This document shows positions 33,361 through 36,693 of a stretch of 64,000 nt of DNA, in pieces. The notes beneath the pieces were generated by a model, which worked only from the letters and a program-made list of their open reading frames with translations, did no database searches and had not been told where the DNA came from. The position numbers and the translations under genes are program-made. The DNA lies in assembly GCF_002209355.2 (NCBI RefSeq), contig NZ_CP106855.1, positions 1,860,001 through 1,924,000 on the forward strand. Reading direction: 5' to 3'. The number at the start of each line of letters is the position of its first letter. Within the stretch, counting starts at the first letter, position 1. The stretch comes from Bdellovibrio sp. SKB1291214 (GTDB lineage Bacteria; Bdellovibrionota; Bdellovibrionia; Bdellovibrionales; Bdellovibrionaceae).

Positions 33361-33605
33361 ACCTTCTCCTCGGCATTTTCGGCTTTCTACTTGATTTTCC
33401 CTCTGATATGCAAGGTCCACAGTATGTATCTTGCTGCTGGACCATAGGATAAAGACCCCAAGTGTTGTCTATAAGCACCAATCGTGTTCGGAAAGCTACA
33501 GTGCTTGTGCCCTGCAACGCATCGCCCTTGATTGCACAAATCAAAATCTTATCGGAAAATCATTAATGAATCGTATTTAACTTAACCTTGAATGAGAGAG
33601 CCTTT

Positions 33606-34724
33606 ATGAGCATTCAACAAGTTCCATTTATTACTTTGAACCGTTTCGAACCTGGTTTCCGCGATGAGTTTTTGGCGGGAGTTGCCAACCTTTTTGATAA
33701 GACTCAATTTGTTGGTGGACCTATCGTCGGCGAGATGGAAGCAAATCTTGCTGCTTACACTAAATCTAAACATGCTATCGGTTGCGCAAACGGAACTGAT
33801 GCCATTCAAATCGCACTTCGCGCTGTGGGTGTTGAAAAGAACGATAAAGTTCTAGTTCCAGATATGACTTTCTGGGCAACTTTCGAAGCTGTTGTGAACG
33901 TGGGTGCAAACCCTGTGACTGTGGATGTGAATAAAGAATACTGCCATTGGGATCTTGCGACTTTCAAAAAAGCAGTGGAGCAATTCAAACCAAAAGCAGC
34001 TATCATGGTTCACCTTTATGGTTGGGTGACTCCTGAGACTTTGGAAATCAGAAAATTCGCAAAAGACAACGGCGTTGTTTTGATCGAAGACGGTGCTCAA
34101 TGTTTCGGTACAGAAATTTCTGGCCAATCTGTTTTGGGTACGGCTGAAATTTCTACGACAAGCTTTTACCCAGCAAAAGTTTTGGGTGCTTCTGGTGACG
34201 CTGGCGCGATTTTCACAGCAAACGATACATATGCTAAAAATTGCCGTACATTGATTAATCACGGTCGTACAGATCACTACTCTCACGGGATGATCGGTTG
34301 GAATTCTCGTATCGGTGCTTACGAGTCATTATTCTTGAACATGTCTTTGAAACACATCGATGCTCGTATCAAGTCTCGTATGAACGCAGTTAAGTTTTAC
34401 GAAGAATCTTTGAAAGGCTTGCCACTAAAACCAGTTCGCGCGGCTTCGACTGTGACTGAAAACGGTTACTGTGCGGTTGCGATGATTGAGCCAAAACTTC
34501 GTCCCGCTTTGATTGAGAACTTGAAAAAAGCAAACGTAGGTTACGGCACAATTTATCCAGGTGCGATGAGCATGCAGTCTGGCGCTCAAAGCCACTTGGC
34601 AGGTAAGATTGACAATGGAAACGCTCACTACATCTCTCAAGCTGTATTGAACCTTCCATGCTTCGCATACATCACGCCAGAAGAACTTCAATACGTTGTC
34701 GACGTCGTTAAAAAGAGCTTCTAG
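33606..34724 (+). CDS. DegT/DnrJ/EryC1/StrS sugar aminotransferase
   Basis: PLP-dependent aminotransferase of nucleotide-sugar pathways, 372 residues from ATG 33606, which is preferred over ATG 33588 because GAGAG precedes it. GCANGTDAIQIALRAVGV, GAQCFG and SFYPAKVLGASGDAGAIF (with the PLP-binding Lys) are diagnostic, and NSRIGAYESLFLNMSLKHIDARI follows. It probably makes an amino sugar for surface polysaccharide. The codon choice looks more regular than in neighbours, hinting at good expression. Its terminator was split by the IS element just downstream. Confidence 0.92.
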   Translation: MSIQQVPFITLNRFEPGFRDEFLAGVANLFDKTQFVGGPIVGEMEANLAAYTKSKHAIGCANGTDAIQIALRAVGVEKNDKVLVPDMTFWATFEAVVNVGANPVTVDVNKEYCHWDLATFKKAVEQFKPKAAIMVHLYGWVTPETLEIRKFAKDNGVVLIEDGAQCFGTEISGQSVLGTAEISTTSFYPAKVLGASGDAGAIFTANDTYAKNCRTLINHGRTDHYSHGMIGWNSRIGAYESLFLNMSLKHIDARIKSRMNAVKFYEESLKGLPLKPVRAASTVTENGYCAVAMIEPKLRPALIENLKKANVGYGTIYPGAMSMQSGAQSHLAGKIDNGNAHYISQAVLNLPCFAYITPEELQYVVDVVKKSF

Positions 34725-34793
34725 TATTCATTCTAAATTCAGAGCCCTGTCATCAGTGGATGTCGGGGTTACAAAAGAAAAAGCCGGGTTTGA

Positions 34794-34814
34794 TGATCTG
34801 TACCCCAAAAACTG
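34794..34814 (+). repeat. IS left terminal inverted repeat
   Basis: TGATCTGTACCCCAAAAAC-type end, inverse of 36153-36173 in 19 of 21 positions. The preceding TTGA is the target duplication. Confidence 0.88.
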
Positions 34815-34874
34815 GAGAAGGAAATAAAAGACCTTTTCCCGTATTTGGGGTATTTTCTTTTAAAGGAAGAGATC

Positions 34875-35285
34875 ATGGCAATTTTGAGCGATTCAGCAAG
34901 GAAGAAGCTGGAGGATAATCCCAATGTACTTAAGGTTACCGCCAAGAATGTGACTTACACTGCGGCATTTAAGATTAAAGCGGTGAAGCAGTTTCTTGAT
35001 GGTGAATCTTACGAGTCTATTTTTTCTAAAGCTGGTGTGGATTTAGCCCAGTTTGAAAGTAACTATGCACGAAAATCTGTCGATCGTTGGCACAGAATTT
35101 TTAAAGAGTCTGGCGAACAAGGGCTCAAGGCTGAACGGCGGGGCTCCGGAGCCAAGGGCCGACCTAAAGGAAAGAAATTCAAGTCTCTAGAGGCTGAAAT
35201 CGCGTATTTAAGAGCGGAGAATGATTTCCTAAAAAAGCTGAACGCCTTGGAAGCAGCCTACTTAAAAAAGAAAAATTCTCGTTAG
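34875..35285 (+). CDS. IS3-family OrfA, transposase DNA-binding subunit
   Basis: The 136-residue product starts after AAAGGAAGAGATC. It contains a helix-turn-helix region (YTAAFKIKAVKQFLDGESYESIFSKAGVDLAQFESNYARKSVDRWHRIFKESGEQGL). A leucine-zipper-like coiled coil follows near the end (LEAEIAYLRAENDFLKKLNALEAAYLKK). That is the layout of IS3 OrfA proteins, which bind the inverted repeats. Near its end the sequence A AAA AAG at 35264-35270 is in the correct phase for a -1 ribosomal frameshift into orfB. An ATG further upstream at 34845 lacks a ribosome-binding site. Confidence 0.9.
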   Translation: MAILSDSARKKLEDNPNVLKVTAKNVTYTAAFKIKAVKQFLDGESYESIFSKAGVDLAQFESNYARKSVDRWHRIFKESGEQGLKAERRGSGAKGRPKGKKFKSLEAEIAYLRAENDFLKKLNALEAAYLKKKNSR

Positions 35286-36130
35286 TTTCCAAGGCAAATT
35301 TAATTCGACCAGAATTATCTATTGAAGATCTTTGTCTGCAAGCAAATGTAAGCGTCAGTGGTTATTATTATTGGAAAAAGCACTCTGCTGTTCAGAGAAA
35401 TAATGTAGACGAAGATTTAATCCAAAGCATTTTTCATTGTCGCAGAGGTAAAGCCGGTGCTCGTACTATTAAAATGCTACTGCAGCGGCACTTTTGGATG
35501 ATTCTAAACTTAAAAAAAGTGCGACGGGTTATGAAAAAGTATGAGCTGAAAGCGGTGATTCGTAGAAGAAATAAATACAGCTTTCCAGCAGCCACAAAAG
35601 AGCATAAGTCTTGCTCCAATTACTTGAATAGAAAATTTAGTCCTGCAAAAAGTGACATGGTTTACTCGACGGATATCACCTATTTAAACTATGGGGCTGG
35701 TAAAGCTTATCTTTCAGCAGTTAAAGATCTTGGAACTCGCGAAATTGTTCATTACCAAGTATCAAAATCACCGAACCTTTTGTTGGTGATGGAGGGCTTA
35801 AATAATTTACTGAAAGGGTTACCTGAATCTAAGCTTAAGAAACTGACTATCCACTCGGATCAAGGATTTCATTATACATCCAGCCCATATAGGAATTTGC
35901 TCAAGAATTACGGCGTGAGGCAGTCGATGTCCCGGAAAGGAAATTGTTTGGACAACGCTCCGATTGAAAGCTTTTTTGGTCACATGAAAGACGAGTTGGA
36001 ACTTCAAAGTTGCAAAACGTATACGGAGTTGGTAACTGAGGTCGATAGCTTTATAAACTATTATAATAACGAACGCCCACATTGGGGATTAAAAGGAAAA
36101 ACCCCGGCAGAGTGCCGAGGTTTTTCGTAA
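35282..36130 (+). CDS. IS3-family OrfB, DDE integrase-type transposase
   Basis: The frame is open from before the slippery site to 36130 and overlaps orfA. No start with a ribosome-binding site is visible near its beginning, so it is most likely made as an OrfAB fusion by -1 frameshifting at 35264-35270. ELSIEDLCLQANVSVSGYYYWKK and RRGKAGARTI mark the N-terminal part. The catalytic acids are in STDITYL, IHSDQGFHY and NAPIESFFGHMKDEL, followed by YYNNERPHWGLKGKTPAE. All are intact, giving a full rve/DDE domain. A hairpin near 36099-36125 may end the IS transcript. Confidence 0.9.
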   Translation, partial: LVSKANLIRPELSIEDLCLQANVSVSGYYYWKKHSAVQRNNVDEDLIQSIFHCRRGKAGARTIKMLLQRHFWMILNLKKVRRVMKKYELKAVIRRRNKYSFPAATKEHKSCSNYLNRKFSPAKSDMVYSTDITYLNYGAGKAYLSAVKDLGTREIVHYQVSKSPNLLLVMEGLNNLLKGLPESKLKKLTIHSDQGFHYTSSPYRNLLKNYGVRQSMSRKGNCLDNAPIESFFGHMKDELELQSCKTYTELVTEVDSFINYYNNERPHWGLKGKTPAECRGFS

Positions 36131-36152
36131 AGAGCCTTTTTATTTATCTATA

Positions 36153-36173
36153 CAGTTTTAAGGGTACAGATCA
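36153..36173 (-). repeat. IS right terminal inverted repeat
   Basis: CAGTTTTAAGGGTACAGATCA, inverse of the left end in 19 of 21 positions, followed by the TTGA duplication at 36174-36177. Confidence 0.88.
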
Positions 36174-36213
36174 TTGATCCCGGCTTTTTTTTTAAATCTG
36201 AATCGGAAACCGA

Positions 36214-36693
36214 TTAATTGCAGTTTGCGATTGTTTTAGTTTTCACAGATCGTGGGCGTTCGTGGCGATAGTCAGACATTTCGTAGACCGACTGTGTGTA
36301 TTCCAATGGATACTTTTTAATTTGTTCCACAGATTTCACACAGCGTGGGCGAGTAGAGTCATCGCGATTCCATTTAATACAAACCTCTTGAACATAGTCC
36401 CGAGAAGCAGTGATGTACTTCGCCGGATAGGAAACCCTTTTAGGCTTCACACAAATCTTTTTAGGATATTTGGAGTCAGAGTGGTCCCAGCGATATGATT
36501 CACAGACGGTCTCCTTATGAGCTGGAACGAAAACTCTGAAGGCGTTTGCTTCAGCCATATAACAAAGGGCGTCCTTTGTGAAAGTACCTTGTTTCGGAAC
36601 ATAAGGGTTGATCGTGCGGTTCAAAACAGTTTCCCCATAATAAGCAGAAGCCAAGCCAGGGGCCAAAAGCATAAGAGCAATAATAAATTTCAT
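36214..36693 (-). CDS. Exported six-cysteine protein, paralogue B
   Basis: This 159-residue protein has a signal peptide cleaved near ASA (residue 17) and aligns end to end with the protein at 26587-27066 without large gaps. Shared features are NR..NPYVP, LC, VFVP, CES, ICV, EVCIKWNRDDSTRPRCVK, YTQ and SDYRHERPRSVKT with a final Cys. The set of six cysteines is conserved, so three disulfides are likely. Function is unknown. The start follows AGGATC. Unlike its paralogue it has no regulator next to it. It lies just right of the IS element. Confidence 0.8.
   Translation of the reverse strand: MKFIIALMLLAPGLASAYYGETVLNRTINPYVPKQGTFTKDALCYMAEANAFRVFVPAHKETVCESYRWDHSDSKYPKKICVKPKRVSYPAKYITASRDYVQEVCIKWNRDDSTRPRCVKSVEQIKKYPLEYTQSVYEMSDYRHERPRSVKTKTIANCN

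Follow-up and report, generated by a model that had tools for sequence, protein, structure and literature searches.

An IS150-type insertion sequence in the loop of a Bdellovibrio transcription terminator, and the probable targeting of terminator-like palindromes by its relatives

The element and its insertion site

The window analysed here, 64,000 nucleotides of contig NZ_CP106855.1 (1860001-1924000) from Bdellovibrio sp. SKB1291214, carries an insertion sequence between an aminotransferase gene and a convergent gene (Table 1). A sequence-only reading had named the upstream gene as DegT and assigned the element to the IS3 family, and both identifications are borne out by protein models. OrfB scores 277 bits against the IS3 transposase model NF033516 (cut-off 160) and has the catalytic triad DD(35)E, with invariant residues D150, D212, and E248. 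The ends are of the TG...CA type (TGATCTGTACCC/GGGTACAGATCA), and the flanking TTGA duplication falls within the 3–5 bp of the family. The element also has overlapping frames and an A AAA AAG heptamer (A6G), and a −1 frameshift that joins orfA and orfB into OrfAB is presumed by analogy.

Table 1. Features at the insertion site, numbered from the first nucleotide of the window
Feature	Position	Strand	Basis
DegT/DnrJ/EryC1/StrS aminotransferase gene, ahead of split terminator; start codon uncertain	33588..34724	+	ORF; PF01041, E 4e-77
Host terminator 5' arm GCCGGG, A-rich tract ahead	34783..34788	+	Sequence; rebuilt-site fold
Left TTGA copy, 4-nt target duplication, inner part of loop TTTGAT	34790..34793	+	Sequence
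IS3-family, IS150-type insertion sequence, 1380 bp	34794..36173	+	Ends; duplication; NF033516; tree
Left terminal inverted repeat TGATCTGTACCC, 12 bp	34794..34805	+	Sequence
Terminator-like hairpin (21-bp imperfect stem) and TTTTCTTTT, before orfA	34801..34861	+	Inverted repeat; fold; relatives
orfA, 136 aa, helix-turn-helix protein	34875..35285	+	
orfB, DD(35)E transposase domain, without obvious own start	35225..36130	+	Open frame
A AAA AAG heptamer; orfA/orfB −1 frameshift presumed here	35231..35237	+	Sequence; frames; function from IS3 family
Terminator-like hairpin AAAAACCCCGGCA-GAG-TGCCGAGGTTTTT, at orfB end, can be read from either strand	36097..36125	.	Fold z = −4.9; relatives
Right terminal inverted repeat GGGTACAGATCA, 12 bp	36162..36173	+	Sequence
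Right TTGA copy of target duplication	36174..36177	+	Sequence
Host terminator 3' arm CCCGGC (36179–36184) and T9 (36185–36193)	36179..36193	+	Sequence; fold
Convergent gene, unknown family	36214..36693	−	ORF; ortholog in L205 adjoins uninterrupted hairpin

The OrfB tree, a quick tree with just three reference elements, places the element in the IS150 subgroup: it lies in one 59-row clade with IS150 (SH-aLRT 90), apart from IS2 and IS3. In the same quick tree, the branch of the window element also holds Firmicutes and CPR elements and is sister to the branch that bears IS150.

The insertion reads AAAAAGCCGGGT-TTGA-[TGATCTGTACCC...GGGTACAGATCA]-TTGA-TCCCGGCTTTTTTTTT. Removal of the element and one TTGA copy restores AAAAAGCCGGG-TTTGAT-CCCGGCTTTTTTTTT, which is the GCCGGG/CCCGGC terminator that the sequence-only reading had proposed, with a predicted fold of −21.8 kcal/mol (z = −6.0). 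The presence of this hairpin at the insertion point is not chance, because its p value against the local background is 0.0011, and loop-hairpin scores of 28 or more occur at just 0.09% of positions in the window. The duplication had been described as the loop sequence itself. It does lie within the loop, but the loop has six bases (TTTGAT), of which TTGA is the inner four.

Neighbouring genes and transcription

An uninterrupted version of the site is present in the congener G015 (L205), where AAAAGCCGGG-ACTCAA-CCCGGCTTTTT has the same stem as the window site and adjoins the ortholog, 82% identical, of the convergent gene that follows the element on its right. An empty site without a hairpin, named beforehand as counter-evidence, was therefore not what the relative showed. 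In G015 this hairpin terminates a 139-aa gene, situated between it and degT and missing from the window, and degT has a separate terminator of its own; five further congeners likewise have a terminator-like hairpin directly after degT. Relative to G015 (L205:2425-3012), the window (34725-34782) has neither the 139-aa gene nor the degT terminator. The degT gene of the window now depends on the terminator split by the element, and an imperfect hairpin without a T-run is left after it, near 34743-34767.

The physical division of the host terminator had suggested that degT transcription might run into the element and beyond. Such read-through is unlikely, because the element has predicted terminator-like hairpins at both ends: a strong one with a T-run, which begins 7 bp inside the left end and precedes orfA, and another at the end of orfB. 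In addition, the gene beyond the element is convergent. From their predicted folds, the internal hairpins probably stop transcription entering from both sides. Similar structures recur among 55 distinct relatives, which are not independent owing to common descent, at 26 left ends (2.8 expected from shuffles) and 39 right ends (11.5 expected). None was found at the ends of IS2 and IS3.

Copies across Bdellovibrionota

The sequence-only reading had suggested that the transposase targets terminator hairpins. This is strongly supported by other copies in the phylum, whose flanks also proved to be terminators and not unrelated sequence. Both flanks were available for 23 Bdellovibrionota copies, and an insertion in a hairpin loop is seen for 20 of them at p<0.01 and for 19 at p<0.005. 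With a background of 0.85%, for which the window and 400 kb of the genome G004 served as the source, chance would give at least 19 such copies with a probability of 4e-36. A later test set consisted of copies fetched, after the hypothesis had been formed, by searching 369 genomes from the phylum. Here, 11 of 12 two-flank copies occupy hairpin loops, including all six of G170, and the copy in G158 is imperfect. Copies cut by contig ends retain half a terminator in five of six cases, as judged by eye. The right ends of the G170 copies and of one G157 copy are ...TA rather than ...CA, and were called by the repeat motif and a 3–4 nt duplication; the ends of many distant relatives (e.g. L045/L443, L055) were called with end motifs.

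Within the same genus, G000, the genome of the window, holds two diverged relatives and G004 holds eight copies of another relative, and hairpin loops at p<0.005 accommodate one of the former and seven of the latter. The L040 copy has an imperfect hairpin and lies within an ORF, while L004 and L438 yield no clean hairpin on rebuilding. L004 (1102-2456), a diverged copy in the same genome, is without a duplication and has half a terminator on the right only, pointing to a left end that may have been deleted or rearranged.

In the 20 hairpin-loop copies, both arms are retained and 2–4 nt are duplicated. The stems are unrelated across sites, and when the arms of different sites are exchanged, the median pairing score drops from 29 to 17.75. 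What the targets have in common is composition, namely an A-tract, a G/C stem, and a T-tract.

The suggestion that such a location is low in cost is also supported, since 21 of the 23 copies are flanked by convergent ORFs (taken in all of these counts as frames from stop to stop and not as curated genes). The corresponding proportions are lower for the strong hairpins in the 400 kb taken from G004 (34/69; Fisher 6e-6) and for hairpins flanked on each side by A- and T-tracts (23/29; p 0.03). It follows that the element prefers terminators that are symmetric and two-way.

Wider relatives and target recognition

A single pipeline was applied to IS150-type elements, IS2, and IS3 proper. Hairpin insertions at p<0.01 were found in 30 of 51 IS150-type insertions (counted where both end motifs were present and the duplication measured 3 nt or more; nine Bdellovibrio copies are included, such that the sets overlap), as against 1/55 for IS2 and 0/25 for IS3 proper (Fisher 8e-15). 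In viral contigs alone, the source of nearly all controls, the IS150-type figure is 15/25. The 21 insertions that fail the hairpin test include some in larger loops or half terminators, and others elsewhere, such as L057 and L065 at tRNA 3' ends. Both sister branches of the IS150 clade contain hairpin insertions in the OrfB tree. Compared by eye through T- and A-run lengths, the polarity of element against terminator shows no consistent orientation.

The targeting of terminator-like palindromes is thus well supported. As a whole explanation, we propose, with a probability of about 0.85, that an IS150-type transposase selects the dyad centre of such palindromes, and that the element in effect takes over from the terminator it splits. 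The OrfAB transposase, made via the −1 frameshift, would pick the dyad centre and make a cut staggered by 3–4 bases within the loop, from which the duplicated bases would derive. It would recognise no fixed sequence; the feature recognised may be the symmetric A-tract / G+C stem / T-tract, or the hairpin that it can form. The usual target would be the terminator common to two convergent genes, and the end hairpins of the element would probably halt transcription from either side, effectively taking the place of the terminator that was split. We infer both that the transposase itself makes the target choice and what it reads at the target.

An apparent preference could also result from survivorship, where insertion is widespread and only intergenic copies persist. 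The position of most sites between convergent ORFs, where insertion costs little, agrees with this. However, insertions a few bases outside the loop would be equally harmless, yet in 28 of the 32 strong hairpins located near IS150-type insertions, no more than 1.5 nt separates the dyad from the centre of the duplication, which selection alone cannot produce. Nor do IS2 and IS3 exhibit such centring in similar collections, where the three strong hairpins near their insertions are all off centre. Survivorship is consequently a highly improbable explanation. Scarcely better is the idea that a paused or terminating RNA polymerase, and not the DNA itself, attracts the transposition complex. Although intrinsic terminators are most of the Bdellovibrionota targets, centring is exact on the dyad and not on the T-tract where polymerase halts, and relatives occupy palindromes that have no T-runs.

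For the physical step alone, there is a competitor, to which we give somewhat less than even odds: a transposase dimer might read two half-sites of symmetric duplex (an A-tract, then G/C steps) without any hairpin being formed, with terminators simply providing the best symmetric matches. Most sites do share this half-site composition, and the A- and T-tracts flanking both sides agree with the convergent-gene bias. By reasoning, a full cruciform would separate the loops widely, which is awkward for a 3–4 nt stagger. The matches of a half-site matrix in 400 kb of G004 are all terminators, a result that does not separate symmetry of sequence from the shape of a hairpin. Against duplex reading, L443 has the lowest matrix score (−27) and yet a long perfect stem, and the relatives L163, L115, and L090 are in palindromes that lack long A/T tracts. 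These cases lean towards the palindrome or its shape as the feature that matters.

Comparison with known systems

Group IIC introns are retroelements associated with terminator hairpins. Their enzyme is unrelated, and they insert beside the hairpin, whereas the window element lies in the loop.

Targeting of REP sequences or palindromic units is known in the IS3 family from IS1397, ISKpn1, and ISPsy8, with specificity reportedly set by the transposase (PMC1525189). These elements resemble the present one in transposase family and in their use of short intergenic palindromes. They differ in that they hit one conserved repeat family, while the window element and its relatives occupy ordinary intrinsic terminators whose stems, as the arm swaps indicate, do not belong to a single REP family. 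Three relatives from Pseudomonas and Klebsiella (L098, L122, L083) lie within apparent REP or palindromic-unit sequences, matching published ISPsy8 and ISKpn1.

IS1272 and TnSha1 target inverted repeats whatever their sequence, including several terminators, and they delete the stem-loop and make no duplication (PMC4923244, PMC5678879). The present elements, in contrast, keep both arms and duplicate 3–4 loop bases. In this they look like a loop-duplication route that had been drawn merely as hypothetical (PMC5678879).

Palindrome-targeting elements are therefore already known, and the novelty here lies in the targets of an IS150-type element, which are ordinary intrinsic terminators whose stems are unrelated. 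No report of terminator targeting by the IS150 group was found in the literature searched, which left subscription papers largely uncovered and is weak evidence of absence. It seems that a harmless landing site is chosen by shape or symmetry, and not by fixed sequence. The suggested landing rule for this large and widespread group, the centre of hairpin-forming DNA and usually the common terminator of convergent genes, would unify scattered reports of REP targeting and explain how IS150-type elements spread with little harm. It would also point to a transposase that needs no guide to locate a feature of which each genome has hundreds. Tentatively, and with slightly less than an even chance, dyad-centred and sequence-independent recognition of hairpin DNA could be ancestral to the IS150 subgroup, with REP targeting and the hok/sok hot spots as derived states.

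Classical IS150 of E. coli belongs to the same large OrfB clade, and one copy (L379) sits in a perfect terminator loop. It was considered as a simple terminator-loop element and rejected as such: L379 fits, but 14 of 16 copies in the E. coli sample (L417-L433) adjoin hok-family genes. The sites concerned are at hokA, hokB, mokC, hokE, and plasmid hok, in the antisense sok region, and the insertion points at hok loci are often identical between strains. From these sequences, the hok/sok region looks like a target hot spot, and the sok terminator hairpin is perhaps the actual target. In an evolution experiment, insertion hot spots of IS150 were seen at hok/sok loci and at ldr loci and were interpreted as selection (PMC5419217); recurrent insertions at hok/sok in such experiments may reflect hot spots, and not selection only.

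A different kind of target is found in two relatives from uncultured bacteria, one of them a CPR genome (L057). In L057 (2470-2545) and L065 (2442-2533), the elements begin 2–3 bases past the 3' ends of the genes for tRNA-Glu and tRNA-Ser, respectively.
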